NCBI GenBank assembly: GCA_012031975.1
Contig: JAAUSA010000012.1
Coordinates: forward strand, 1 to 46,106
Length of the DNA: 46,106 nt
DNA from: Alkalinema sp. RU_4_3
GTDB lineage: Bacteria; Cyanobacteriota; Cyanobacteriia; Leptolyngbyales; Leptolyngbyaceae
Direction: 5' to 3'
Shown in pieces: positions 9,421 through 24,982 of this stretch. Position numbers and translations under genes: made by a program. A model generated the notes under the pieces. The model saw nothing but the letters and a program-made list of their open reading frames with translations, was not told the origin of the DNA and ran no database searches. Each line of letters starts with the position of its first letter. Position 1 is the stretch's first letter.

Positions 9421-10356
9421 ATGAAACCTTTGAAGACGGTTATGGATAATTCCCCTAGCGCTTACCTTGCTCCGGCCCTACCACCGAAGTTTTCTGTCGA
9501 AGAGGCTGATGCGATTAACGATCGCGTCAACGATCTGCGGGTCTCGGGGCAGTTCGATCCGCAAGATGGAGCCATCCTGCAAGATATGGTGGAATGCTTA
9601 GGAGATAGTCGGGGCACCGTTCGTCTCCGGTTTGCAACGGTGCTAGGTGAGATCGGTCAGCCTGCCACCGCCATTCTGCTCAAAGCTCTAGCTGAACATC
9701 CTAATCCCGTTGTCCGCCGCGCCGTGGCCAAAACCTTGACTTTGATTGGCGATCCATCTGCGGTGCCCGGTCTCATCCAGGCAGTCCTACACGATGAGGA
9801 TACAGTCGTCAAAAGTTCCTCCGTTGGAGCCCTGGCCCGAACTGGGCAGATCGCTGTGCCGACACTTCTATCCTTGCTGACCGATGCGACAACCCCTGAA
9901 AACCTGAAGGGTCTGGCAGCTTGGGCCTTAGCCTTCATCGGTCTAGATGCAAAGGATGCTCTGCTGGAGCAGATTCACTCTGATAGTGTCGAGGTGCGAT
10001 CGGCCATTGTGGCCGCGATCGTCAAGATGGCCCAGGAGGCCCCCGATGAACAGATGTTTGAAATCCTTGTGGAGGCTTTGCAGGATTGGGACTTGACCGT
10101 TCGCCTAGAAGCGATCGCGGCCCTCGGCAACCTCGCCTATTTACCTGCCCAACCCAAACTCTTCACCCTGCTCACGGATGAAGAGGCTGAAACTAGGCGA
10201 TCGTCGGTGCTTGCCCTAATGAAGATGGGTGATACTACAGCGATTCCCCAGCTAGAGACTGCCCTCACTGTTGAACCGGAAGAGAGTATCCAGAAAGTTA
10301 TTCAGTTGGCGATCAGCCAGTTGCAACGCCAGATGGATGATGATGACTGGGATTAG
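9421..10356 (+). CDS. cpeF: HEAT-repeat bilin lyase-like protein (CpeF/MpeV-like)
   Basis: The 311-residue protein consists of HEAT-like repeats of the E/F lyase clan: LQDMVECLGDSRGTVRLRF, LGEIGQPATAILLKALAEHPN, VVRRAVAKTLTLIGDPSAVP and VIQLAISQLQRQ at the C-terminus. This arrangement resembles CpeF (MpeV-like), which in Fremyella acts on the doubly linked phycoerythrobilin at beta-phycoerythrin Cys-48/59; both cysteines exist in the CpeB encoded here. It converges on cpeZ with a 4-base overlap of stop codons and lies next to cpeY, which supports a phycoerythrin role. A related gene at 18463 is the alternative candidate, so the symbol is tentative. ATG 9421 is used; Met at 9442 is an alternative. 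Confidence 0.7.
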   Translation: MKPLKTVMDNSPSAYLAPALPPKFSVEEADAINDRVNDLRVSGQFDPQDGAILQDMVECLGDSRGTVRLRFATVLGEIGQPATAILLKALAEHPNPVVRRAVAKTLTLIGDPSAVPGLIQAVLHDEDTVVKSSSVGALARTGQIAVPTLLSLLTDATTPENLKGLAAWALAFIGLDAKDALLEQIHSDSVEVRSAIVAAIVKMAQEAPDEQMFEILVEALQDWDLTVRLEAIAALGNLAYLPAQPKLFTLLTDEEAETRRSSVLALMKMGDTTAIPQLETALTVEPEESIQKVIQLAISQLQRQMDDDDWD

Positions 10357-10976
10357 CTTTGGCGGTTGTAGTTTCTCACTAGGTCCGATCGAGACAATGC
10401 GCTATTTGCCATCTCCCGAATGTAGGGGTCAAAAGTTTCGGTGTCGGTGATCTTTTGGAGCAGGACGGCGGCGCGATCGTCTTTGATGGCACCTAGAGAG
10501 TTGACGATCGAGACGGCTAGGCCGACATTGTCTGTGGCAGTCAGGGCTTCATCAAAGATGTCTATGGCAGGAGTTCCGATTTCCCCTAGGGCCATGGTGG
10601 CTGCAATATGGACGACAGGGTTCTCATCTTGCATCGCGGCCTTGAGGCCATCCAGTCCAGCCTGGGGAAAGGGTTGATCGCGGTACATCACGGCAACCTG
10701 GGCCAGGGCCTTGGCGCAGCTACCTCGGACGGTGACATTGTCGCTCTTCAGCATGCCATCGACGGTGTAGGGAATGGAGTCCTGGCCGATTGCCCCCAAA
10801 GTCTTGACCGCGCAGCGGCGATAGACCACATCTTCATCATCTAGGGCCGCGATCAACCGCTCGATAATTGCCTTATCTGGCGTCTCGCTATAATGCTCGG
10901 CCAAGTCCCACATAGCGTCATCCCGGAGATTTGGGTTGGGATGCTTGAGCTGTTCAAAAATTTCGTCGGTAGTCAT
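10353..10976 (-). CDS. cpeZ: Phycoerythrin lyase chaperone CpeZ
   Basis: The 207-residue protein starts MTTDEIFEQLKHPNPNLRDDAMWDLAE and has HEAT repeats with DEDVVYRRCAVKTLGAIG, SDNVTVRGSCAKALAQVAV, NPVVHIAATMALGEIG and NVGLAVSIVNSLGAI. These blocks and the length match CpeZ (about 205 residues). In Fremyella, CpeZ acts as a chaperone-like partner that raises CpeY activity and stabilises phycoerythrin. It is 18 bases downstream of cpeY on the same strand, the known cpeYZ order, and follows cpeBA at a distance, as in other phycoerythrin loci. Its stop codon overlaps that of the convergent CpeF-like gene. Confidence 0.88.
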   Translation of the reverse strand: MTTDEIFEQLKHPNPNLRDDAMWDLAEHYSETPDKAIIERLIAALDDEDVVYRRCAVKTLGAIGQDSIPYTVDGMLKSDNVTVRGSCAKALAQVAVMYRDQPFPQAGLDGLKAAMQDENPVVHIAATMALGEIGTPAIDIFDEALTATDNVGLAVSIVNSLGAIKDDRAAVLLQKITDTETFDPYIREMANSALSRSDLVRNYNRQS

Positions 10977-10994: not shown

Positions 10995-12269
10995 TTAAAC
11001 AAGGCTGGCAATCTTGGCTCGAATCGACCAATCGGGGTCTTCGGCTAGGCGGTCGAACCCACTTCTATCACCCAGCTTGTCCAGGGCGAGGATGGCACCA
11101 TAGCGCAGATCCCACAGCGGACTTTCCAAGCAAGGTGTCAATAGTTCAATGGCCTTGGGATCGCCCAGTTCGCCGAGGGCCATGGCGGCAGCGGCGCGGG
11201 ACTTCTGGAACTGGGGCTGACTAATATTCAAACCCTCTGCCAAAACATCGTAACCCGGTTCATAGCGTAACCAGCCCAGTAGTTTCATCACATGATAGTG
11301 GGCTCCGTAGTCCTCTCGGGCCTTGTCTTGATAGGTTTGGAGTAAGGCTGCGCCGACGGCTGGGCGATCGCTATGCTCTATCAGGGTCTTAGTGGCCAAA
11401 TAGGCGCGGGCAAAGTCAGTTTCGTAGAGTTCTTGGATCAGGCGATCGATCGCTGGGGTGTCGTCGTAGGCATGGATTAGCTGCAAGTCCTTGGGATGGT
11501 CATACAGCGCCTTTTCAAGTTCTGGTCCGATGACTTCTGCCTGAAGTGCTCCGGTGGGCAATCCTACCTCAGCTAACATTCTGAGTCCTCGCATTCTGAA
11601 AACTAGAGATACAGGGGCCTGACTGATGTAGGGGATGGCTGGATAGTAGTTTGTGTCGATCAGATCTTGGATGCAGAGTCGGCGAGTGTAGACGTTTGGA
11701 TGGAAGAGAAACTCCATTACTGATTCCATCACTTCTTCATTTCCGGTAAACCGATAGACGGTGGCCAGGGCCGCGCTAGCGATCGTTTTATCTTCGTATT
11801 CAGTGAAGGATTGGATGCGATCCAGGGCCGGATGATAGTCGAGCTTGGCGATTGTGTGGATGATCGCCCGGTAGCTTTGGTTTGGGACGGCGAGGAGTTG
11901 GGCTAGGGTTTCTAGGATCGCTGAGTCTTCAGTACCGATCTCGCCGATCGACCAGGCGGCATTTTCGATCGTATAGGTGTCGTCGGTTTCGGTGAGGCAG
12001 CCATGAATGGTGGCAAGGCCGCTCTTGGCCTTGAGTTTGCCGAGGGATTCGATGGCCTTGCGGCGGACAATCCGGTTGTCGAGGCTGGGCTCGCGATTTT
12101 CAATGGCCCGAGTGAGTGCCGCGATCGATTCTTCGGAGGGAAAAAAAGCTAACTGAGAGGCGGCAATGTAGCGGGAGTCGTCCTCTGTTAGTTGATCAAG
12201 GGGTTTGTCCAAGACTGCGATCGCGTCAGATTCGGAGAGTCCAAAAAGGTTGGCAAAGCGATTATTCAT
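10995..12269 (-). CDS. cpeY: Phycoerythrobilin lyase CpeY
   Basis: The 424-residue HEAT-repeat protein matches CpeY, including MNNRFANLFGLSESDAI at the start, VRRKAIESLGKLKAK, ENAAWSIGEIG, FHPNVYTRRLCIQDLIDTNYYP, FRMRGLRMLAEVG, AHYHVMKLLGWLRYEPGYD and LWDLRYGAILALDKLGD. CpeY is an E/F-clan lyase that attaches phycoerythrobilin to alpha-phycoerythrin Cys-82, the cysteine present in CpeA here. Length fits the family (about 425-435). cpeZ follows 18 bases downstream. The cpeBA operon lies upstream on the same strand, separated by a hairpin at 12303-12337, so read-through from cpeBA may supply part of its expression. Confidence 0.9.
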   Translation of the reverse strand: MNNRFANLFGLSESDAIAVLDKPLDQLTEDDSRYIAASQLAFFPSEESIAALTRAIENREPSLDNRIVRRKAIESLGKLKAKSGLATIHGCLTETDDTYTIENAAWSIGEIGTEDSAILETLAQLLAVPNQSYRAIIHTIAKLDYHPALDRIQSFTEYEDKTIASAALATVYRFTGNEEVMESVMEFLFHPNVYTRRLCIQDLIDTNYYPAIPYISQAPVSLVFRMRGLRMLAEVGLPTGALQAEVIGPELEKALYDHPKDLQLIHAYDDTPAIDRLIQELYETDFARAYLATKTLIEHSDRPAVGAALLQTYQDKAREDYGAHYHVMKLLGWLRYEPGYDVLAEGLNISQPQFQKSRAAAAMALGELGDPKAIELLTPCLESPLWDLRYGAILALDKLGDRSGFDRLAEDPDWSIRAKIASLV

Positions 12270-12380: not shown

Positions 12381-12914
<534 letters not shown>

Positions 12915-12961
12915 TCAAATTGCTGTGCCAACAAGCAACAGCTTTAAGCTCAGAGCGCTAA

Positions 12962-13699
<738 letters not shown>

Positions 13700-13740: not shown

Positions 13741-14562
13741 TCAACAATCTTTTTTCAGGCTATCGCGGGTACTACGGCGCGTAAAGGTATTCCATACGTC
13801 AAGTTCGGCATTGGGGCGGCTTAAAAGTTGACTGCGTTGGCCGTCGCTCAGGATGGCGGCTCCAAAATCTGCGCCAGCGATGCTCTGTAAATTCTCCAGC
13901 TCCGCATCTGTAAAGTCAGCAGCCCGGAAGTCAGCTTCACTTAGGTCCACATTCACCAGTCGAGCTTTATGCAGGTAGGCCCCGGTAAAGAAGGCTTTGC
14001 GCAGGTCAGCACCACTGAAGCGGGCGGCTTCTAGGTTTGCGCCCGTGAAGTCGGTGCCACTCAGATATGCACCCAAGAAGTTGGCCGATTGGACATCGGC
14101 TTGACGGAGGTTGACGGTGTTGAGGAAAGCTCCACTGAGTTGGGCGCTGGGGCCGATCGCCCCAGAATTTTTGTAGGAGAAGGCTTCTGGCCAGAGGGTT
14201 TGGCTGTTGTAGCGGGCGACTTGAAGTTTGGCCTGATCGAGGTTTGCACCCGTGAGGTTGGTGTTTTCGAGGTTCGATCGACAGAGGTTTGCGCCCGTCA
14301 AATCAGCGCCGGAGAGATTGGCGCCGGAGAGATCGACGCCCCGAAGGTCGGCATTGATGAGGTTTGCGCCGGAGAGGTCGGCATTCTTGAGCAGTACAGC
14401 GAGGAACTTTGCCCGTTCTAGGTTGATGCCCTTCAGGTCGCAGTTGCTGAGGTCTTCTTTGTAGCAGTCGAGTTGACTAGCGGCCCCCGATCGCAATAGT
14501 TCAAGGATGGCGGTGCGGCGATCGTCCGGGTTGTCTTGACTGAGGGAAATGGAGCGATTCAT
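13741..14562 (-). CDS. Pentapeptide-repeat protein in phycoerythrin locus
   Basis: From ATG 14562 the protein is 273 residues. After a short helical leader (DDRRTAILELLRSG) it contains a long run of A(D/N)Lxx units such as NADLSGANLINADLRGVDLSGANLS, interrupted once by a non-repeat loop near residues 110-130. Such sequences fold as a right-handed quadrilateral beta-helix. Its biochemical role is unknown; pentapeptide proteins are common in cyanobacteria, and some are linked to regulation (for example RfrA) or to DNA mimicry. It lies immediately upstream of cpeBA on the same strand and divergent, by 60 bases, from the S/U-type lyase gene, so a phycobilisome-related job is possible but only by context. 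The longer frame to 14706 overlaps the lyase and looks unlike a repeat protein. Confidence 0.8.
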   Translation of the reverse strand: MNRSISLSQDNPDDRRTAILELLRSGAASQLDCYKEDLSNCDLKGINLERAKFLAVLLKNADLSGANLINADLRGVDLSGANLSGADLTGANLCRSNLENTNLTGANLDQAKLQVARYNSQTLWPEAFSYKNSGAIGPSAQLSGAFLNTVNLRQADVQSANFLGAYLSGTDFTGANLEAARFSGADLRKAFFTGAYLHKARLVNVDLSEADFRAADFTDAELENLQSIAGADFGAAILSDGQRSQLLSRPNAELDVWNTFTRRSTRDSLKKDC

Positions 14563-14622
14563 TATGAGGGATATTAAAAAAGCACGTTGAATCTGATTGT
14601 AAACCTTGGATGGTGGGACAAA

Positions 14623-15213
14623 ATGCGGGTTGATATTCCAATGACCATGATGGATTTTTTCCGTAAGAGTCAGGGCACTTGGCTCACCCAGCGGGAGGTT
14701 CACCATTTTGACCTGGTGAAAAACGAATCAGGGGTTTCCAATTTGATCGTCAAGGTGATCGAGGCCAAGGACCCAAGGATCTTAGATATTTGTCAAGCGC
14801 AGAACATTGATCCGGCCCTGGCCCTCGGTGGCGGAAGCTTTATGTGGCAGGACAATCTCGACGAGGTTGCGCCCAATGAGAACTATGCTGCGATCTTGAT
14901 CGATGTGCCCGACGATGAGAGCCGACGGTCTGGGCGACTGCTACGGAATCGAGGCTATGTGGAGACGGCCCCTGTGGTCTGCCGCTATTGGTTTGGCCAA
15001 GATGGGGTGTTGACGATTGACACAGAATACGACAACAATGTCGGCCAGGAGCGCTGCTGGTTTATCACCGATGACTTCCGGGTGCGGGTGAGCAGTGTGC
15101 GCTTGATGGATGGGGTGCAGCTAACGGCCTACTGTTCAGAGCGGCGCTGTGTGACTGATGAGACTTTAGAGGCATTGTTGCAGCGCAATCGCGATCGGGC
15201 TGCGGTTGTTTAA
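14623..15213 (+). CDS. Phycobiliprotein lyase, CpcS/CpeS family (CpcU/CpeU-like subgroup)
   Basis: The 196-residue protein contains MDFFRKSQGTWLTQREVHHF, GRLLRNRGYVETAPVV and ERCWFITDDFRVRVSSVR, the S/U-type lyase pattern, but it differs clearly from the paralogues at 469 and 22095 (VHHFD instead of HHLAF, and CW-FITDDFRVR). It looks closest to the U-like branch, whose members act alone or as a heterodimer with an S-type partner on Cys-82/84 sites. ATG 14623 is used because a GGTGGG lies upstream; Met codons at 14641, 14647 and 14650 are also possible, and the homologous domain begins near the last. It is divergent from the pentapeptide gene and converges on cpcA, sharing a bidirectional terminator. 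Confidence 0.82.
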   Translation: MRVDIPMTMMDFFRKSQGTWLTQREVHHFDLVKNESGVSNLIVKVIEAKDPRILDICQAQNIDPALALGGGSFMWQDNLDEVAPNENYAAILIDVPDDESRRSGRLLRNRGYVETAPVVCRYWFGQDGVLTIDTEYDNNVGQERCWFITDDFRVRVSSVRLMDGVQLTAYCSERRCVTDETLEALLQRNRDRAAVV

Positions 15214-15279: not shown

Positions 15280-15768
15280 CTAGCTCAGTGCGTTGATTGC
15301 GTAGTCGATATAGGAATTAGCTTCCACAGCAGGGTCGCCAGAGAGACCATGGTTGGCTTTGACATACTTCAAAGCTTCCACATACCAGCTGGGGGAAAGA
15401 TCAAACGTCTTGTTGATCTCAGCAATCCCGCCGATCAAGTAGTCATCCATGGGGCCTGTGCCGCCGACAACCAAGCAGTAGGTGATCATGCGCAGGTAGT
15501 AGCCGATGTCACGCACACACTTCGCTTTACCTGTTGCGGTAGAAGCAAAGTTAGGACCACTCATGGTGGTGGTGTAGGGGAACTTCTGGTACACAGCGTT
15601 AGCTGCGCCATCAGCAAGGCTCTGAGCCTTGTCGGTCAAACCCTTGGCAGCAGCAAGGCTGGCCGAGGCTTGGCGGAAACGACCAAAGGCGGTCTGGATT
15701 TCGGTGCTGCTCAAAAAGCGGCCCTGAGAATCAGCAGCAGAAATTGCTTCGGTAATAGGAGTCTTCAT
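15280..15768 (-). CDS. cpcA: C-phycocyanin alpha subunit
   Basis: The 162-residue protein starts [20 protein letters not shown] and carries the single alpha bilin site at Cys-84 ([15 protein letters not shown]), as in all CpcA. Length is the family standard. Its chromophore is normally attached by the CpcE/CpcF heterodimer, and both partners are encoded on this plasmid. It follows cpcB by 118 bases. No cpcC or cpcD rod linkers follow, unlike the common cpcBACD operon, so the phycocyanin here may be only the short proximal part of rods that continue as phycoerythrin. Confidence 0.96.
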
Positions 15769-15886
15769 CGGTTTCGCTTCTCCCGGTAGTTTTTACAGGA
15801 CTAATCAAATCTTCCAACGGACAGCAAGTGCATTAAGGACGCGTGAGAGAGCCTCAGCCCTCCCCACGACGGTCGCTCAATTCGAT

Positions 15887-16405
15887 CTAGCCCACAGCAG
15901 AAGCTGCGCGATCGAAGTAGCTTGCCACTTCAGCCATGATGGCGGAGCAATCACCGGAGGTGATGTTGTTGCGATCGCCAGCGATAGCAAGAGCTGCGTC
16001 CTTCATCTTTTGCACGCCCACTGCCACGGAAGCTCCGGGAGTACCGAGTGCCAAGTAGGTTTCGCGTAGACCATTCAAGCAGCGATCGTCAAGGACGGAA
16101 GCGTCACCTGCGAAGATTGCATAGGTCACATAGCGCAGAATAATTTCCATGTCGCGCAGGCAAGCGGCCATACGACGGCTGGTGTAAGCGTTACCACCAG
16201 GAGCGATCAGCTGGGGCTGCTCGGCAAACAATGCGCGGGCAGCGTTAGCGACGATCGCAGAGGCGTTGCTGGTAATGCGGTTGACGGTGTCCATCCGCTT
16301 GTTGCCATCTGCAACCATGGCGCTCAAAGCGTCCAACTGAGCAGAGCTCAAGTATTCGCCCCTTGCGTCAGCCTGGGAAACAACCTTAGCAAATGCGTCA
16401 AGCAT
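15887..16405 (-). CDS. cpcB: C-phycocyanin beta subunit
   Basis: The 172-residue protein starts [20 protein letters not shown] and has both beta-phycocyanin bilin cysteines: Cys-82 ([11 protein letters not shown]) and Cys-153 (SGDCSAIM). Asn-72, the site of gamma-N methylation by CpcM, is present in the PGGNAY motif. Cys-82 is normally loaded by CpcS-type lyases and Cys-153 by CpcT. No CpcT distinct from CpeT was found here, so the host may supply it. It is first in a cpcBA operon with a 463-base upstream region rich in short dyads and repeats. Confidence 0.96.
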
Positions 16406-16868: not shown

Positions 16869-17615
16869 TTAGGTTGAGCTTGTCAACTTTTGCTCCAGGT
16901 CAAAGAGAAATCCATGGATGTAGGCCTCGGTCCATTCCTCTCCATAAAATCGTTTGAACATGCCACGGGCTGGGTCTTTCTCCGCGCGATAGCGCAGATA
17001 GCGCAGGTGGGCAGCCTCAACCTCTTTGAGGCGATCGGGGTCCGTCACAGGCTGGGCCTGCTCCACAAAACCAAGGTAGAGGTCTAGATAGTCCTTGAAG
17101 GCGTTGAAGACATGGGTCTCTACGGCCTCAGTTTCCGTCGGGCGAGTCCATAGAAAGGCTGGGGAGAAGAAGGGCTGCGCCTCCTCCGGGAAGTCCCCGC
17201 CCCAGGGCAGGTGAGCTTGGTACTTCTCAAAGGTGGCCATCACAGGCGCACTGTATCTCGCTTGGTAGTCTGGCTCATCCCGAAACAAGGGCTGCATATC
17301 GATCGCAATCAAATGCCCCCCCGGCAAAGTCACCAAGTCTGCCCCAAAGAAGGGCAGGTCATAGTTGAGCCTTGGGAAGATGACAAAGTTCAACACTTGC
17401 AGAGCAGCACCTCCTTGAACATGGGCGGCCCGAAACTGGCGAATCTTCTCGCTCTGGAAGGCGTAGCTAGTGGTGGTGACAAGCTGGGCGCGATCGCCTT
17501 TACCTGTGACGGCCTCCTTAAATTCAAAGCCTTCAGGAATGGGATAGGCATCCAGATCAAGCTTGGCACGCAAGATCTCTATCCCTTGCTCAAGAAAGGG
17601 CTGATATAGGGTCAT
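16869..17615 (-). CDS. pebB: Phycoerythrobilin:ferredoxin oxidoreductase PebB
   Basis: The 248-residue product is a ferredoxin-dependent bilin reductase: [35 protein letters not shown] and [16 protein letters not shown] are the family blocks. Of the PebA/PebB pair this one has the PebB features and the downstream position. PebB reduces 15,16-dihydrobiliverdin to phycoerythrobilin, the chromophore of CpeA and CpeB. It starts 15 bases after the pebA stop codon on the same strand, the usual pebAB operon, which allows channelling of the intermediate between the two enzymes. Length is close to the family's usual 245-260. Confidence 0.93.
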
Positions 17616-17630: not shown

Positions 17631-18359
17631 TTAGTGAACGGCTGCCGCCAAGGACACAGCATCTTCAAACAGGAACTCGAACAGGAATCGGTTCGCCCAT
17701 TCATTGCCAAAGTGGCTACTGAACAACCCATGGGCCGGATCGCGATCGGCGCTGTACTGGTCATAGTCCTTCTGGGCCTTGATGACCCGCTGGATATCCG
17801 AAGGGTCGCTCAGCGGCATCGCCGCATCAAGCATTTCCCAATACAAATCCAGGTAGTCCTTAAAGGCGTCAAACACCCGAGTCGGGATGACATCCGGCTC
17901 CACCTTGGCAAACAGCAGGAACTTCGAGAAGTACTGGTTCGCATCGTAGAACTTCATCTCCAATCCCTGGGCTAAGTCCGGGTAGCGATCGTGCAGCCGT
18001 TGCAAGGGCGCAATGTACTTCTGCTGGTAGGCTTCATCCTGAAAGAGAGGTTGAAAATCCAGTACAATCAGATTTTTGACTTTCCCAAAGGAAAGAAAGT
18101 CAATCCCCAGGAATGGCAGCTCATACTGAGCACTGGGATAGATCACACTGTTGAACACCTGCATTGCATCGCCTGCATCCATGTATGTGTAGCGAATTTT
18201 CCGCAACTCGGCACATTCATAACTCCAACTTTGAATCGTCGCTGGGGTCCGGCCTCGATCGCTAGCCTTGTGCGCTAACCCGGCTGGAATAGCCCGTGGT
18301 TGTAGTGCGAACCTTTGGAACAGTTCGCTTTCCAAATGCTCCAGAAAGGGCTTATACAT
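17631..18359 (-). CDS. pebA: 15,16-dihydrobiliverdin:ferredoxin oxidoreductase PebA
   Basis: The 242-residue protein begins MYKPFLEHLESEL and has the bilin reductase blocks IRYTYMDAGDAMQVFNSVIYP, LPFLGIDFLSFG and [16 protein letters not shown]. PebA makes the first two-electron reduction of biliverdin IX-alpha to 15,16-dihydrobiliverdin. It is the first gene of pebAB. No heme oxygenase is encoded here, so biliverdin must come from the host. It is divergent from the CpeF-like HEAT gene at 18463, with about 100 bases between that should hold both promoters. Confidence 0.93.
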   Translation of the reverse strand: MYKPFLEHLESELFQRFALQPRAIPAGLAHKASDRGRTPATIQSWSYECAELRKIRYTYMDAGDAMQVFNSVIYPSAQYELPFLGIDFLSFGKVKNLIVLDFQPLFQDEAYQQKYIAPLQRLHDRYPDLAQGLEMKFYDANQYFSKFLLFAKVEPDVIPTRVFDAFKDYLDLYWEMLDAAMPLSDPSDIQRVIKAQKDYDQYSADRDPAHGLFSSHFGNEWANRFLFEFLFEDAVSLAAAVH

Positions 18360-18462
18360 AAAGTTGAGTTGTAATACCGGTATGTGTCTGAGGATAAAAG
18401 ATCGCTAGAATGGAAGTCCTGATTCTTAAACAGAAATACATGTTCTGTTGTATCTCTTAACA

Positions 18463-19338
18463 ATGTCTTTCCTGCCCCTAGATGCCTCAAAGTTGGCCAT
18501 TGATCAGTCGGTAACAGACGCGCTGATCGAGGTTGTGAACCAGCAAATCATGTTGCATACCTTTGAGGACGAATCTTTACTCGATCGTATGGTAGAGCAT
18601 TTAGCGGACGAGCGCGATCGGGCTCAGATGCAACTAATTGATACCTTTGGAGAGATCGGTGATCTGGCCACACCCATCTTGGTCAAAGCCTTGAACAAGC
18701 ATCCCAATTCTAGGGTTCGCTCGGCTGTGGCTCGGTCCTTGGCAAAAATTGCTGATCCTGAAGCCGTTGAAGATTTAGTCCTTGCTTTGATTGGAGACCA
18801 GGATACAGAGGTTCGGGCAGCGGCGGCAGCGGCACTATCACGGATGGAGGAAGCGGCGGTGCCTGGCTTAGTTTCAGTCTTGGCTTCTCCCACTTGCGAT
18901 GAAGTACAAAAAGGTCAGGCAGCCTGGGCCTTGTCCCAAGTGGGAGAAGCTGGACTGATTGCCCTGATGCCGTCATTGCAACATCCTGGCGTGGATGTGC
19001 GTTGTGCCGTGCTGCGATCGATCGCCAAAACTGCCCAAGGCCAACCCAATCTTGTCGTGCTCTCTTGCTTAGAAACCGCCCTCAAGGACGAGTTCTCTCC
19101 TGTACGCGCAGAGGCAATCCGAGCCCTCGCAGATCTCAATCAGCAACAGTCAATTGGCGCAATCGCCCTCAGCCTTCGCGATCAGGATCCAGATGTGCGT
19201 CAAGCTGCCGTGATCGCCCTCGGACGGCTCAGGAATGTTGAGGCCCTGCCAAGCCTTAGAATCGCACTGCAGGATTCTGTTGTGGGTATTCGTTCCCTAG
19301 CCAAACTCTCCATCCAGCAGATTCAAGGCACACTGTAG
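18463..19338 (+). CDS. HEAT-repeat bilin lyase-like protein (second CpeF/MpeV-like)
   Basis: The 291-residue product is all HEAT-like repeats: MVEHLADERDRAQMQLIDTFGEIGDLATPILVKALNKHPN, VRSAVARSLAKIADPEAVEDL, VRAAAAAALSRM and VRQAAVIALGRLRNVEALP. It shares domain order and several blocks with the protein at 9421 and with CpeF/MpeV, so it belongs to the E/F lyase clan; NblB- or IaiH-like roles are alternatives. ATG 18463 is chosen over TTG 18448. It is divergent from pebA and is followed after 26 bases by the phycobiliprotein-like gene, so those two probably form an operon. One testable idea is that this protein serves that divergent phycobiliprotein. Confidence 0.72.
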   Translation: MSFLPLDASKLAIDQSVTDALIEVVNQQIMLHTFEDESLLDRMVEHLADERDRAQMQLIDTFGEIGDLATPILVKALNKHPNSRVRSAVARSLAKIADPEAVEDLVLALIGDQDTEVRAAAAAALSRMEEAAVPGLVSVLASPTCDEVQKGQAAWALSQVGEAGLIALMPSLQHPGVDVRCAVLRSIAKTAQGQPNLVVLSCLETALKDEFSPVRAEAIRALADLNQQQSIGAIALSLRDQDPDVRQAAVIALGRLRNVEALPSLRIALQDSVVGIRSLAKLSIQQIQGTL

Positions 19339-19364: not shown

Positions 19365-19943
19365 ATGGCACTTAGTGAACATCTGAAACAGCTCATCCAA
19401 AAAGCCCGCATCATGGACTTCCAGGACTGGTCCGATCGCCATTCTCCGGAAATCGTCGCCCTCTTCCAAGCAGCGGATGAAGGGAAGCTATACCTAACGG
19501 ATGATGCATTGACAAAATTGAAACATCTGTATCCTGACCGAGGGGAGGACTTGGCGATCGTGCAAATGTTGCGCGATCAGGTGGTGGAGATTGTCGATGA
19601 AGCAAGGGCAGGGGTTTTAGCCCGATTCCCGACGATTTTAGAGCCCGGTGGAGGCCTTTATCCACCGGAGCGCGCCGATGCCTGTTGGCGGGATTTTTGG
19701 CAGTTCTTACGCTGCATCACCTATGGTATTGCTGGCCAGCAGACTCAGTACACCAGTGAGTCAGGGCTACAGCACATGCGCCTACTCTATGAAGAACTTC
19801 AAGTGCCCCTTGATGCGATGGTTGTCGGCTTGGAAGGCATCAAGTTGGCTAGCTTGAAGCGAGTCTCCCCAGAACAGCAGTCCGATCTCGTACCTTACTT
19901 TGACCACTTAACTCAGCAGCTTGATCGCTTTCGCAAAATGTAA
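19365..19943 (+). CDS. Divergent phycobiliprotein-like (globin-fold) protein
   Basis: The 192-residue protein aligns by eye with phycobiliprotein beta subunits: ILEPGGGLYPPERADACWRDFWQFLRCITYGIAG matches the CpcB stretch around [20 protein letters not shown], and LRLLYEEL-like and VVGLEGIK blocks follow at the right spacing. The bilin cysteine (Cys-107) and the following R-D pair, which holds the bilin nitrogens, are kept; the methylated Asn is Gly-97. A 25-residue N-terminal extension and low identity elsewhere set it apart from CpcB, CpeB and allophycocyanins. It could be a minor pigmented rod subunit, a cap, or a bilin carrier/assembly factor. It follows the HEAT gene by 26 bases and precedes cpeC. 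No established name is known to me. Confidence 0.72.
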   Translation: MALSEHLKQLIQKARIMDFQDWSDRHSPEIVALFQAADEGKLYLTDDALTKLKHLYPDRGEDLAIVQMLRDQVVEIVDEARAGVLARFPTILEPGGGLYPPERADACWRDFWQFLRCITYGIAGQQTQYTSESGLQHMRLLYEELQVPLDAMVVGLEGIKLASLKRVSPEQQSDLVPYFDHLTQQLDRFRKM

Positions 19944-20272
19944 CAAAATGTTAAGAGTTACTCAACATTTCTCATTGTGCCCCTATTGACTTTGAGCAAG
20001 CCATTGCAGGCATTTTGCCCCTCGATTGGCGTTGTTTCATTCATAATTCTTGATAGTTGGAAGCCCTGGCATATATGAAGATTGAAGATGCGCGATCTTG
20101 TCAACAATGTTGAACCAGATTGACAGAGTTCGATCGAACTCAAACTCGGTCTTCTCAAGGCTTTAATCAGCTTAAAAGAATAATTTTGGTTGCCTCTGGC
20201 AATTATGAATGTCCTTAATATCTTGAGACGATCGCTACTAAACCGCTGTTGTTAACCAGGAGAAAGCACTCC
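19944..20272 (+). promoter_or_regulatory. cpeC upstream region with two dyads
   Basis: This 329-base gap holds the probable promoter of cpeCDSTR. TCAACAATGTTGA (20101-20113) and the perfect 16-bp palindrome GAGTTCGATCGAACTC (20126-20141) lie close together about 130-170 bases before the start. A short dyad TAACAAAATGTTA (19941-19953) overlaps the upstream stop codon. In chromatically acclimating species this promoter is controlled by CpeR-independent light regulators (CcaR or RcaC), but no exact G box or L box was recognised. Confidence 0.5.
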
Positions 20273-21127
20273 ATGCCTTTTGGACCAGCTTCCCGATTGG
20301 GGGTCAGCCTATTTGATGAGACCCCTCCCCTTGAGTGGGTCCCTGGACGATCCGTAGAAGAAGTCGAAACATTGATCAATGCAGTGTATCGGCAGGTTCT
20401 TGGTAACGCCTACGTGATGGAAAGCGAACGGCTTGCCGTTCCTGAATCACAGTTTAAGCGCGGCGAACTAAGCGTCCGTGAATTTGTGCGCGCCGTGGCA
20501 AAATCCGGTCTCTATCGCACTAGATTTGTTGAAGCTGTACCGCGCTATCGCTACATCGAGCTAGCCTATCGCCATCTGCTGGGCCGTGCCCCGAATAGCT
20601 ATGACGAGATGAAAATGCACAGTGCTGTCCTTGATACCAAAGGGTTTGAGGCAGATATTGACAGCTTCCTCGATAGCGATGAGTACCACAATGCCTTCGG
20701 CGAGAATTTTGTACCCTACATCCGGGGTTACAAGACCGAAGCCATCACCCACATGGTGGGCTTCACCCATACATTCCAGTTGGTGCGGGGCGCTTCTACC
20801 AGCTCTCTGAAAGCTGACTTGGCAGGCAAGTCACCAAAGCTGAACGCTTTGGTGATCAATGCCCAAGCGACCCCAGTGACCCCCCCTGGCAACACCTTCC
20901 GTGCTCCGGCAATCAACTCTTACGTCCGTCAAGGCGCAGGGGCAACCGAGAACGGCAAGACCTACCGGATCGAAGTCACAGGCTACCGTGCGAAGGCTGT
21001 CAACCGGGTTTCCCAGTTCCGGCGGTCCAACCAGGTCTATCTGGTTTCCTATGAGAACCTATCCCAGGAATATCAGAGAATCCACAGACAAGGTGGCACG
21101 ATCGTCAGTATCAGTGCTGTTAACTAG
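20273..21127 (+). CDS. cpeC: Phycoerythrin-associated rod linker CpeC
   Basis: From ATG 20273 the protein has 284 residues and starts MPFGPASRLGVSLFDETPP, the CpeC N-terminus. The phycobilisome linker domain (about residues 20-170) contains AVYRQVLGNAYVMESERL, GELSVREFVRAVAKSGLYR and IELAYRHLLGRAP; a C-terminal CpcD-like domain has YRIEVTGYR and SQFRRSNQVYLVSYENLSQEYQRI. CpeC joins phycoerythrin hexamers into rods and sits next to phycocyanin. It is the first gene of a cpeC-D-S-T-R cluster. A strong hairpin separates it from cpeD, so a short cpeC-only transcript is likely. Confidence 0.93.
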   Translation: MPFGPASRLGVSLFDETPPLEWVPGRSVEEVETLINAVYRQVLGNAYVMESERLAVPESQFKRGELSVREFVRAVAKSGLYRTRFVEAVPRYRYIELAYRHLLGRAPNSYDEMKMHSAVLDTKGFEADIDSFLDSDEYHNAFGENFVPYIRGYKTEAITHMVGFTHTFQLVRGASTSSLKADLAGKSPKLNALVINAQATPVTPPGNTFRAPAINSYVRQGAGATENGKTYRIEVTGYRAKAVNRVSQFRRSNQVYLVSYENLSQEYQRIHRQGGTIVSISAVN

Positions 21128-21217: not shown

Positions 21218-21949
21218 ATGGCCGACACAATGGAACTGTGGGCAAATGCTTCCACAGAAGATATTCAAACTGTCATTCGCGCAGTCTATAAGCAGGTTTT
21301 GGGCAACGCCCATGTCATGGAGAGCGAGCGCCTGACCACAGCAGAGTCTCAACTTTGCGATGGCAGTATTACCGTTCGGGATTTTGTCCGTTTGGTGGGT
21401 AAGTCGGACTTCTACCGCAAGCGTCACTTTGAGAAGTGTGCACCTAATCGCTTCGTGGAGCTGAACTTCATGCATTTTCTGGGTCGGCCTCCAGAAACGC
21501 AGGCTGAGATCTCTGAGCACATCCAGCGCTGTGTCAACGATGGCTATGATGCCGAAATCGACTCCTACATCGATAGCGATGAGTATACTGCCACCTTCGG
21601 TGAGAACCAGGTGCCCTTCAATCGCGGCGCACGCACGGAATCCGGACTGAGACAGAACACCTACAACAAGATGTTCGCCCTCGATCGCGGTCCTGCTCAA
21701 CTGAGCGGAGCCGTTAAGTCCTCCCAGATGGTGGGCTTGAGTGCTGGTAACAAGATCACTGCTTCTTCTGCGACCGTGACAGGTTCAGGGACAGAGAAGA
21801 AATTCCGCATCGTGGTCAAAGGGGCTACTGGTGGCGTCCGTCGCATCAGCACAACGGAATACCTGGTTACAGCGGAAAAGATGTCTCCAACCATTCAGCG
21901 GATCAATCGCACCAGCGGCAAGATCGTCAGTATCACGGAAATTGCCTAG
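21218..21949 (+). CDS. cpeD: Phycoerythrin-associated rod linker CpeD
   Basis: The 243-residue protein starts MADTMELWANASTEDIQTVI and has the linker-domain blocks AVYKQVLGNAHVMESERLT, GSITVRDFVRLVGKSDFYRKRHF and LNFMHFLGRPPE, plus a C-terminal CpcD-like domain (KKFRIVVKG...STTEYLV...IQRINRTSGKIVSI). It is a distal phycoerythrin rod linker, either CpeD or the closely related CpeE; cpeD is preferred because of its position directly after cpeC. Only one such gene is present, so the rod may hold fewer phycoerythrin hexamers than in species with cpeCDE. GGAGGGA at 21204-21210 is a strong ribosome binding site. Confidence 0.85.
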   Translation: MADTMELWANASTEDIQTVIRAVYKQVLGNAHVMESERLTTAESQLCDGSITVRDFVRLVGKSDFYRKRHFEKCAPNRFVELNFMHFLGRPPETQAEISEHIQRCVNDGYDAEIDSYIDSDEYTATFGENQVPFNRGARTESGLRQNTYNKMFALDRGPAQLSGAVKSSQMVGLSAGNKITASSATVTGSGTEKKFRIVVKGATGGVRRISTTEYLVTAEKMSPTIQRINRTSGKIVSITEIA

Positions 21950-22094
21950 ATCGATTGGGTAACAAATTTGACTAGCTGAAGTCTAAAGATTTAGCGGGTA
22001 TTTTTGCAATGCCCGCTGGATCAGTCTTCTCTAAGTGTCGAGAAAGAGGCACTAGTCCTGCTTTACCCTCCCAGTATTAGGTCCGTTATAGTCC

Positions 22095-22628
22095 ATGGAT
22101 ATTAATCAGTTTGTTGCCCGGTCCGTTGGGCGTTGGCGATCGCAGCGCAGCGCCCACCATCTAGCCTTTCGTCACTTTGAAGCAGTGGAGTCGGTGATTG
22201 ATATCATCGGCCTTGACCTCAAAGACAATCGCGTGATTCAGCTTTGCCAACAACATGATGTCGATCCAAGCCTTGCAGTATCACCTTTTTATATGGCCTG
22301 GGAGGGTCAGTCGGATTGGGATGATACTGCTGTATCCAAAGGAAGCACAGTTCTTGTCCCAGTCCCTGATCCGGAAGATCCTGGCAAAGGCAAACTGTTG
22401 AGAGAGCAGGGCTATGCAGAGAGTGGGGCGGCGATCGGCCAGTACCATTTCACAGAGGATCAAACCTTCGTCCTGATCACCCCCTATGACCAGACTTCTG
22501 CGGAAGAGAAGATTTGGTTTGGCACCGATAATCTCAGATTCCGTGTTTCACTGATCAAGACAGCCAATGGGACGGGTGTCGTCACGGCATCCTTTGCCTC
22601 CGAAGTCCGCAGTACAGATCCATCCTAA
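22095..22628 (+). CDS. cpeS: Phycobiliprotein lyase CpeS (S/U family)
   Basis: The 177-residue protein starts MDINQFVARSVGRWRSQRSAHHLAFRH and contains GKLLREQGYAESGAAIGQY and EEKIWFGTDNLRFRVS, the S/U-type lyase pattern. CpeS attaches phycoerythrobilin to beta-phycoerythrin Cys-80/82. Its place between cpeD and cpeT, in the same order as the Fremyella cpeCDESTR operon, supports cpeS rather than cpcS. It is the third S/U-family member on the plasmid. The 145 bases before it contain a weak AGCGGG/CCCGCT hairpin but no clear promoter. Confidence 0.85.
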   Translation: MDINQFVARSVGRWRSQRSAHHLAFRHFEAVESVIDIIGLDLKDNRVIQLCQQHDVDPSLAVSPFYMAWEGQSDWDDTAVSKGSTVLVPVPDPEDPGKGKLLREQGYAESGAAIGQYHFTEDQTFVLITPYDQTSAEEKIWFGTDNLRFRVSLIKTANGTGVVTASFASEVRSTDPS

Positions 22629-22649
22629 ATATCACGATCGGGCCTAGCC

Positions 22650-23282
22650 ATGGAGAATCGAACTGCCTTAATGGATGATTTCATCACCCTCGCTCAATGG
22701 ATGGCCAGCGAGTTTAGTAATCGGACCCAAGCGATTGAGCAGCCAAGGGACTTCGCCCATATTCACGTCTTCTTTCGGCCCCTCCCCTTTAAGTTCTTCC
22801 AAGGTATCGGCTTCTACTCCGAGCAAGTCTACGACTACGACCTATGGACCCCCTATCGCCAGGGTATTCATCACCTAGTTATCCAGAACAACCAAATCTA
22901 TATCAAAAACTTCGGCCTCAAAAGTGCTCCTCGCTATGCTGGCTCAGGCCGTGAACTCTCTATTCTAAAGACAATCAAACCCAGTGATATTCAAGAACGC
23001 TGTGGCTGCGCCATGGTTTTTCATCGAGAGGGAACTCAGTTTTTGGGGCAAGTTGAGTCAGGACGGCAATGTTTGATCCCAAAGGAAGGGCGTCAGACCT
23101 ATCTCGTGAGCGACGTGGAGATGACAGAGAACACTTGGGTCAGCCGCGATCGCGGCTATGACGTGGAGACCGATGAACAGGTGTGGGGATCAGAGGCCGG
23201 GGTTTTCCAGTTTGAGAAGCAGCAGAGTTTTGCCCAAGAGCTGCCACTTCAGGAACTTTTAGAGAGTCATGTGTACACTTGA
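22650..23282 (+). CDS. cpeT: Phycobiliprotein lyase CpeT (T family)
   Basis: The 210-residue protein has the CpcT/CpeT layout: LAQWMASEFSNRTQAIEQP at the start, then HIHVFFRPLPFKFFQGIGFYSEQVYDYDLWTPYRQ and a central block with ERCGCAMVFHREGTQFLG. T-type lyases load the beta-subunit Cys-153/165 site. Here the likely target is beta-phycoerythrin Cys-165, although action on CpcB Cys-153 cannot be excluded, since no separate CpcT is present. It follows cpeS by 21 bases and precedes cpeR by 15 bases, so it is clearly in the operon. Confidence 0.9.
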   Translation: MENRTALMDDFITLAQWMASEFSNRTQAIEQPRDFAHIHVFFRPLPFKFFQGIGFYSEQVYDYDLWTPYRQGIHHLVIQNNQIYIKNFGLKSAPRYAGSGRELSILKTIKPSDIQERCGCAMVFHREGTQFLGQVESGRQCLIPKEGRQTYLVSDVEMTENTWVSRDRGYDVETDEQVWGSEAGVFQFEKQQSFAQELPLQELLESHVYT

Positions 23283-23297
23283 ATTAGCCACTCGTTC

Positions 23298-23648
23298 ATG
23301 AATATTGTTCAATCTCAGCCCACCTCCGGAAGAGTTTTTGGCATGCTTCCCCCAGAAGCTCAGAAAAAGATACAGTCCTGGATTCGGAGTCGTCACCTGA
23401 TTTGCTCCGGAAATTTCTACGTGTTTGAAAGTGTAGACTCCAGTGCGATCGAGCGATTCACTGAAAGTATAGAAGTACTAGGTGGAACCCTAATCTCTGT
23501 GGAGACTATTGGGAAGATCTGGATGGGCGATCATCGACAGGTTTTGCTCTATCGGGCAAAAGCCAGCCTGCATACCCCTTGCCACGATCTCAAGCAATAT
23601 TGGATCAAATACGGCAGCTTTCGGACAAGGTTTGATGAGCAAGTTTAG
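23298..23648 (+). CDS. cpeR: Phycoerythrin operon activator CpeR
   Basis: The 116-residue protein has the CpeR core MLPPEAQKKIQSWIRSRHLICSGNFYVFESVD, LGGTLISVE, KIWMGDHRQVLLYRAKASLHTP and LKQYWIKYGSF. CpeR is needed for cpeBA (and pebAB) expression in Fremyella and is itself made from the end of the cpeC operon, giving a two-step control of phycoerythrin synthesis. The same wiring is possible here, with cpeBA at 12962-13516. No sensor such as CcaS/CcaR or RcaE is on the plasmid, so the light input would come from the host. It carries about 16 extra N-terminal residues before MLPP compared with the usual form. Confidence 0.92.
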   Translation: MNIVQSQPTSGRVFGMLPPEAQKKIQSWIRSRHLICSGNFYVFESVDSSAIERFTESIEVLGGTLISVETIGKIWMGDHRQVLLYRAKASLHTPCHDLKQYWIKYGSFRTRFDEQV

Positions 23649-23716: not shown

Positions 23717-24685
23717 ATGGATTTACATCTTATCCTCTCAAACCTGCTGACCCCACCCATCCTATTCTTTGTGCTGGGAATGTTAGCCGTCTTTGCCAAA
23801 TCCGACCTAGAAATACCAGCACCGATTCCCAAGCTTTTTTCACTCTATCTTCTTCTGGCTATTGGATTCAAGGGTGGCGTAGAACTTGCGAAAAGTGGCA
23901 TCAGTGGTGAAGTCATCAGTGCCATTAGTGCGGCAATTGTCATGTCTTGTTTGGTACCCGTGTATTCTTTTTTCATTCTACGGAAGAAACTAGATGCTCC
24001 CAATGCAGCGGCAATTGCTGCAACCTATGGATCCATCAGTGCTGTTACATTTATTACAGCTACATCCTTCCTTGACCAAGTCCATGTGCCTTCCGATGGA
24101 TTCATGGTGGCAGCCCTTGCACTGATGGAATCCCCAGCCATTATCATGGGCTTGATTTTGGTGAATGTCTTTGGCAAACGGGATAAGGAAGAGATGGATT
24201 GGGGAGAGGTCCTACGGGAAGCCTTCCTTAATGGTTCCGTCTTTCTGCTGATCGGTAGCTTAATTATCGGTGCGATCTCCGGAGAGCATGGTGAAATAAT
24301 GCTCAAACCCTTTGTCAAAGACATGTTCTATGGGGCACTGAGCTTCTTCCTCTTGGATATGGGCTTGGTCGCAGCAAAACGGATTCGAGACCTCAAACGG
24401 ACGGGCAGCTTTCTAATTCTGTTCGCGCTGCTGATGCCTCCCCTGAATGCATCCTTGGCGATCGGGATTGCTGCGTTAATTCATATGACCAAGGGCGATG
24501 CACTGCTCTTCGCTGTCCTATGTGCCAGTGCTTCCTACATTGCGGTCCCCGCCGCAATGCGTTTGACTGTCCCAGAGGCAAATCCAGGGCTCTATATCTC
24601 AACAGCCCTCGCTGTTACATTCCCGTTCAACATTACCGTCGGTATTCCCCTCTATTTTTGGGCAATCCAAACCATGTGGAGTTAA
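23717..24685 (+). CDS. sbtA: Sodium-dependent bicarbonate transporter SbtA
   Basis: The 322-residue membrane protein is hydrophobic throughout, with about ten predicted membrane segments, and has SbtA blocks such as PPILFFVLGMLAVFAKSDLEIP, YLLLAIGFKGGVEL, TYGSISAVTFITA and ASASYIAVPAAMRL. SbtA is a high-affinity Na+/HCO3- symporter of the plasma membrane in the CO2-concentrating mechanism. Typical length is about 350-380, so this member is a little short, mainly in the central cytoplasmic loop. It starts 68 bases after cpeR and is followed by sbtB 6 bases later. Whether it reads through from the cpe operon or has its own low-carbon promoter is not clear. Confidence 0.93.
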   Translation: MDLHLILSNLLTPPILFFVLGMLAVFAKSDLEIPAPIPKLFSLYLLLAIGFKGGVELAKSGISGEVISAISAAIVMSCLVPVYSFFILRKKLDAPNAAAIAATYGSISAVTFITATSFLDQVHVPSDGFMVAALALMESPAIIMGLILVNVFGKRDKEEMDWGEVLREAFLNGSVFLLIGSLIIGAISGEHGEIMLKPFVKDMFYGALSFFLLDMGLVAAKRIRDLKRTGSFLILFALLMPPLNASLAIGIAALIHMTKGDALLFAVLCASASYIAVPAAMRLTVPEANPGLYISTALAVTFPFNITVGIPLYFWAIQTMWS

Positions 24686-24691
24686 ATTTTT

Positions 24692-24982
24692 ATGCATCCC
24701 GTGAATCGGATCGAGTTGATCGTCAACTCGACAGAGATCAAGAAACTCACAAAGCTCCTAGATAAGGCAAATGTACCGGGGTACACTGTTTTCCGCCACG
24801 TCAATGGCAAGGGGGAATGGGGCGTTACCCCAGAGGATACAGCCATGATCGACCTCGATAATGCCTATATTCTAGTTTTCTGTCCAAGCGATCAGACCGA
24901 AAACCTACTTGGACAAATCCAACCCTTCCTCAAGAAATTGGGTGGGCGCTGTTACATATCCGAAGCCCAGGCCCTGTTTTAA
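24692..24982 (+). CDS. sbtB: PII-like regulator SbtB
   Basis: The 96-residue protein has the SbtB signature: an N-terminal ferredoxin-like fold (RIELIVNSTEIKKLTKLLDKANVPGYTVFRHVNGKGEWG, covering the T-loop region) and ILVFCPSDQTENLLGQIQPFLKKLGGRCYISEA. SbtB binds adenine nucleotides, including cAMP, and controls SbtA by direct contact. It is shorter than the Synechocystis protein and lacks the C-terminal cysteine pair of the redox-sensitive R-loop. It is separated from sbtA by 6 bases, so the two are translated together. It converges on the wzc gene with no visible terminator in the 32-base gap. Confidence 0.9.
   Translation: MHPVNRIELIVNSTEIKKLTKLLDKANVPGYTVFRHVNGKGEWGVTPEDTAMIDLDNAYILVFCPSDQTENLLGQIQPFLKKLGGRCYISEAQALF

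Follow-up and report, generated by a model that had tools for sequence, protein, structure and literature searches.

An AplA ortholog, a divergent phycobiliprotein with a conserved bilin site, in a phycoerythrin gene cluster of Alkalinema sp. RU_4_3

The window analyzed here, a stretch of 46,106 nucleotides from Alkalinema sp. RU_4_3 (contig JAAUSA010000012.1), carries a phycoerythrin gene cluster (Table 1), and within it an intact open reading frame encodes a protein of 192 residues whose PF00502 (phycobilisome globin domain) match at 6.5e-45 is, by the profile search, far beyond chance. The initial annotation had described this product as divergent and phycobiliprotein-like, with a retained Cys-107 followed by Arg-Asp, an N-terminal extension of about 25 residues and no methylated Asn, its gene being coupled to a CpeF-like HEAT gene and located ahead of cpeC, and each of these points held. 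C107, R109 and D110 are all present, and the extension measures 25 residues against CpcB and 26 against ApcA; the offset to ApcA is constant, with C81 of ApcA corresponding to C107, and therefore 26 residues stand ahead of the ApcA start. In Nostocales members with longer starts, the extension is a few residues longer. The Asn of PGGN, which is methylated in phycobiliprotein beta subunits (the beta-72 position), is Gly97 in this protein, and mostly G, D, E, A or S in the other members of a 31-sequence alignment. The HEAT gene lies on the same strand, with 26 bp separating its end from the ATG of the phycobiliprotein gene, and a cpeC-like linker gene follows downstream.

Table 1. Coordinates of the features discussed, in window positions
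Feature	Position	Strand	Basis or remark
CpeF-group HEAT protein	9421..10356	+	homology; 55% identical to nearest CpeF-group homolog
cpeZ	10353-10976		HEAT gene, named by position
cpeY	10995..12269	-	626 bits, cut-off 600
cpeA and cpeB, phycoerythrin subunits	12381..13567	-	
Pentapeptide-repeat protein, unk5 of Six et al.	13741..14706	-	linked to aplA in 40/80 loci
cpcA and cpcB, phycocyanin subunits	15280..16405	-	
pebB, phycoerythrobilin:ferredoxin oxidoreductase	16869..17615	-	456 bits, cut-off 327
pebA, 15,16-dihydrobiliverdin:ferredoxin oxidoreductase	17631..18359	-	354 bits, cut-off 263
CpeF-like HEAT-repeat protein (CpcE/F clan)	18448..19338	+	profile match, homology; likely true start ATG 18463
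aplA ortholog, PF00502 domain at residues 33-186	19365..19943	+	profile match, homologs, alignment, tree
N-terminal extension, 26 residues vs ApcA, family-wide	19365..19442	+	alignment; helices H5-13 and H20-24 predicted
Cys107-Trp108-Arg109-Asp110, central bilin site (Cys-84-type, C-x-R-D)	19683..19694	+	invariant in 31/31 relatives
cpeC-like phycoerythrin rod linker	20249..21127	+	linker domain and CpcD domain; likely ATG 20273
Linker, cpeS, cpeT, cpeR-like gene	21218..23648	+	cpeR by position and homology only

Conservation within the family is concentrated at recognizable sites, with 17 invariant columns in the alignment of 31 relatives, among them C107, W108, R109, D110, F114, R116, Y120, G134, Y142 and P148. 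The invariance of C-W-R-D bears out the earlier argument for chromophore binding from conservation of the bilin site, and the protein very probably binds a bilin. The low overall identity to antenna subunits might suggest a degenerate phycobiliprotein duplicate with neither bilin nor function, but against this stand the 17 invariant columns in relatives from many families, the reading frames that are open throughout in the best-scoring orthologs, and a confident predicted fold, which together make such a relic extremely improbable; the same conservation rules out a chance or degenerate reading frame. Three positions were compared for subunit contacts. The canonical alpha-beta contact residues D13, R93 and Y97, which we take to correspond to D38, R116 and Y120 here, are largely retained (D38 in 27 of 31 sequences, R116 and Y120 in all), a pattern with which the formation of a heterodimer may be compatible. 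The window protein has Gln113 and Leu42 where the family consensus has His and Arg. A second cysteine, C117 (19713-19715), shares a helix with the bilin cysteine and stands ten residues past it; it is found in 24 of the 31 relatives and absent from the marine group.

The initial annotation had also proposed a structure prediction as a check for the globin fold, and the AlphaFold2 model (pLDDT 95.7, pTM 0.91) matches phycobiliproteins, the Foldseek matches listed being all phycobiliproteins or smURFP. Superposition gave an rmsd of ~8.4 A to whole allophycocyanin chains and 2.1 A to the N-terminally shortened smURFP. As a control, ApcA of this genome was folded with 27 relatives, and it too departed from its own crystal structures (rmsd ~5.4 A), with low confidence at the N terminus (pLDDT 53-63). 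Because the control misfits as well, the poor fit of the N-terminal helices is uninterpretable, and the idea that the displaced helix pair represents a closed monomer was dropped. The contrast in N-terminal confidence between the two models is suggestive and was left out of the argument, since the control alignment is far less diverse (85% vs 56% mean identity).

The initial annotation had aligned the product with beta subunits and held it to be neither CpcB, CpeB nor a known Apc. What it shares with CpcB, CpeB and ApcB is the fold, the PGG motif and the central Cys; its best NCBIfam scores, however, are to ApcB (73.5 bits, 1.8e-20) and ApcA (71.1 bits, 9.8e-20), ahead of CpcB (41 bits, 1.9e-10) and CpeB (39 bits, 8.5e-10), and all four fall far under the respective equivalog cut-offs of 228, 270, 279 and 275. 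The closest PDB sequences are those of ApcD and ApcA (~25-32% identity), proteins with which it has the fold and the C-x-R-D motif in common, and from which it differs in its N-terminal extension, its separate clade and the location of its gene in a phycoerythrin cluster. In a maximum-likelihood tree of the family members with this genome's ApcA, ApcB, ApcD, ApcE, ApcF, CpcA, CpcB, CpeA and CpeB, the window protein and marine AplA form one group (100/99), which belongs to neither the alpha clade (99/85) nor the beta clade (97/82); the tree was midpoint-rooted, and thus does not give the branching order among the three. The scores and the tree rule out a beta-subunit origin, in keeping with the missing beta-72 Asn. 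The denial of CpcB, CpeB and the standard Apc subunits thus stands, but the protein is not new, in that it falls into the AplA family, known since 2004 (Montgomery et al.).

This assignment was reached through the distribution of relatives and their gene order. Among 386 genomes of the phylum, ~33 encode full-length orthologs at 47-64% identity, N-terminal extension included; a second tier, from marine picocyanobacteria including Synechococcus, aligns at ~30-37% over residues 7-188, and below it the matches drop to ordinary allophycocyanins that align over residues 33-187 only. Scanning 84,980 species genomes for the family motif CWRD[FC][WF][HQ]F returned 242 stretches that encode it; 80 of them, with products at 54-66% identity, were kept as loci, and these come from Nostoc, Calothrix, Scytonema, Brasilonema, Leptolyngbya, Pseudanabaena and others. 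In the marine loci a CpcG-type linker gene comes directly after the relative, and a pentapeptide gene after that. According to Six et al. (2007; PMC2246261), every marine Synechococcus that contains PEII has an aplA ortholog immediately ahead of cpcG2, and the pentapeptide gene unk5 as a rule comes after cpcG2; for Fremyella diplosiphon, they described AplA as a photoreceptor that resembles ApcA and is unconnected to the phycobilisome. From the agreement of the marine position with the published one, the shared clade and the agreeing sequence features, we infer that the window protein is an ortholog of the AplA (allophycocyanin-like, Apl) family and not a new kind of phycobiliprotein; its orthology to the F. 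diplosiphon protein, which is outside the 80 kept loci, rests on the marine aplA (~30-37% identical) as a bridge. The Apl family, described by Montgomery et al. in 2004, is reportedly marked by a 28-residue N-terminal extension and retained chromophore residues, and F. diplosiphon AplA reportedly carries a covalent chromophore and is absent from phycobilisomes. The members from F. diplosiphon and marine Synechococcus resemble the window protein in having an extension of ~26-28 residues, an intact bilin site, similarity to allophycocyanin and an association with phycoerythrin strains, those of the marine strains also sharing the published aplA synteny. Unlike these, aplA of the window lies behind a CpeF-like HEAT gene and beside pebAB and cpeC. 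Public annotation labels the plasmid-borne aplA of Rippkaea PCC 8801 and that of Pseudanabaena PCC 7367 only 'phycobilisome protein' or 'phycocyanin', and for this reason the family is easily taken for something new. No phage copies of aplA were found.

The genomic distribution of aplA follows that of phycoerythrin. The gene is located within phycoerythrin clusters, in a conserved peb/cpe neighborhood, and travels inside these clusters, plasmids included. A recognizable phycoerythrin gene was present on the fetched stretch in 62 of the 80 loci, several of the others being short contigs. Of the 53 genomes that have aplA, 48 also have CpeB, scored as NF058508 over its cut-off, whereas CpeB was found in 2 of the 80 phycobilisome-bearing genomes that lack aplA (Fisher p = 7e-28, a value that ignores the relatedness of the genomes). 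Within at least seven mixed genera (numbered g9, g22, g15, g49, g35, g20 and g47 here) the two genes were present or absent together; genera g30 and g66 are counter-examples. Five genomes have aplA and no CpeB, four from one genus plus genome G036, and each has one bilin reductase, presumably PcyA. C-W-R-D is kept in both sampled members of this group (G312, from the genus of four, and G036), and therefore phycoerythrobilin is not strictly required. The loci of that genus are L068, L071, L072 and L075 (G312, G253, G237 and G235); in the two examined, L068 and L071, aplA lies between genes for an RseP-like protease and a fibrillin-like protein. The order pebA-pebB-aplA recurs on the Rippkaea plasmid and at two further loci (L074 and L079). 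That plasmid, pP880102 of Rippkaea orientalis PCC 8801, is a mobilizable element of 40.8 kb with transposases, on which pebA-pebB-aplA is accompanied by cpeBA, linker and lyase genes. In Pseudanabaena PCC 7367, aplA is near cpeB on a conjugative plasmid, and in Gloeothece citriformis PCC 7424 it is likewise on a plasmid.

A place in the antenna, as the new minor subunit, rod cap or terminal emitter that the initial annotation had suggested, would agree with the phycobiliprotein fold, the intact bilin site and the position of the gene among linker genes. Apart from the family being already known, however, AplA lies outside the alpha and beta clades, and across comparable genomes it diverges much faster than ApcA, identity to this genome's own copy being 29-64% for AplA vs 71-88% for ApcA. 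The F. diplosiphon protein was reported in 2004 not to occur in phycobilisomes, and the five genomes without phycoerythrin retain aplA; on these grounds a function as rod cap or terminal emitter is improbable, as is an antenna role of any kind. Taken jointly, the identity as AplA, the binding of a bilin and a non-antenna role linked to phycoerythrin are highly probable.

The HEAT-repeat neighbors of aplA vary with the lineage. The protein encoded directly upstream in the window is like the CpeF/MpeV lyases in clan and size, and unlike them in its long branch, of unsure placement in the tree, and in being a second copy in its genome. At 37% identity to the other CpeF-like protein of the window and 45% to its best homolog elsewhere, it is, as far as sequence can tell, a fast-evolving second CpeF-like copy. 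Its closest homologs are CpeF-like genes mostly distant from aplA, so that it was rejected as a conserved aplA partner; the arrangement in the window, which recurs as a CpeF-like gene directly upstream of aplA in several Scytonema, Brasilonema and Microseira loci, is therefore one variant, and an NblB-like neighbor is commoner. The latter, a HEAT gene of ~220 aa, lies divergent beside aplA in 54 of the 80 loci, and as its product scores ~100 bits over the full NCBIfam NblB model, far under the cut-off of 300 bits, it is an NblB paralog and not NblB. This aplA-adjacent gene (loci L050-L169) is conserved and apparently has neither a name nor an NCBIfam equivalog; its best homolog in the Alkalinema genome, at 40%, is on another contig (C263). 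With a pair of CpeF-like HEAT proteins in a single phycoerythrin cluster, the window differs from nearly all other searched genomes, which gave one match. That the neighbor varies (CpeF-like here, NblB-like mostly) weakens the case for a dedicated HEAT partner of AplA; a physical partnership between the two may be supposed from the gene neighborhood.

Proteins of this HEAT clan attach, isomerise or remove bilins, or serve as chaperones (PMC7948978). It can thus be envisioned that AplA is a factor for bilin handling or assembly, which would take a bilin from PebA/PebB or from a lyase and hold it or pass it to phycoerythrin with the help of the HEAT lyases. This is a serious possibility, though clearly short of an even chance: aplA adjoins pebA and pebB in many clusters, its neighbors belong to the clan just described and its co-occurrence with phycoerythrin is near-strict, but the five genomes with aplA, a single bilin reductase and no CpeB do not fit, and a thioether attachment, being normally stable, is ill-suited to a carrier. 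The interpretation we tentatively favor, although we hold it at a little under even, is that AplA serves as a sensor of light or of bilin status. AplA is a soluble single-domain phycobiliprotein, which would carry one bilin at Cys107; phycocyanobilin would suffice, because lineages that do not synthesize phycoerythrobilin retain this site as well. The loaded protein would stay outside the antenna and inform or support the phycoerythrin system, and the adjacent HEAT protein, of the CpcE/F-CpeF-NblB clan, would probably read its loading or light state, or would add or remove its bilin. It counts against a sensor that the window protein, a single-domain product, contains no output domain. A function other than sensing, bilin handling or assembly, or light harvesting is unlikely. 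A broader proposal is speculative and rather doubtful. In it, AplA proteins would constitute a third lineage of phycobiliproteins, outside the antenna, that separated as early as alpha and beta did; together with HEAT solenoids of the CpeF/NblB clan they would make up a two-part module for reporting or buffering the supply of bilin to phycoerythrin, one that is carried along with phycoerythrin genes on plasmids.

In the literature searched, no function was found to have been assigned to AplA since its description in 2004. To that description our analysis adds the co-occurrence of CpeB with aplA, the plasmid-borne clusters, the NblB-like HEAT neighbor and the invariant C-W-R-D. The link to phycoerythrin, the invariant site and the recurring HEAT neighbor make this orphan protein experimentally testable, and they raise the question of whether a non-antenna biliprotein is needed for making, loading or regulating phycoerythrin.

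Two further observations concern the flanks of aplA. The gap between aplA and cpeC contains a perfect 16-bp palindrome, GAGTTCGATCGAACTC (20126-20141), the sole copy in the window, where 0.03 copies would be expected at up to two mismatches; it is a possible operator of the cpeC operon. The stretch right after the phycoerythrin linker operon (23717-24982) encodes an Sbt_1-family bicarbonate transporter and, behind it, a PII-like protein, in the SbtA/SbtB arrangement.
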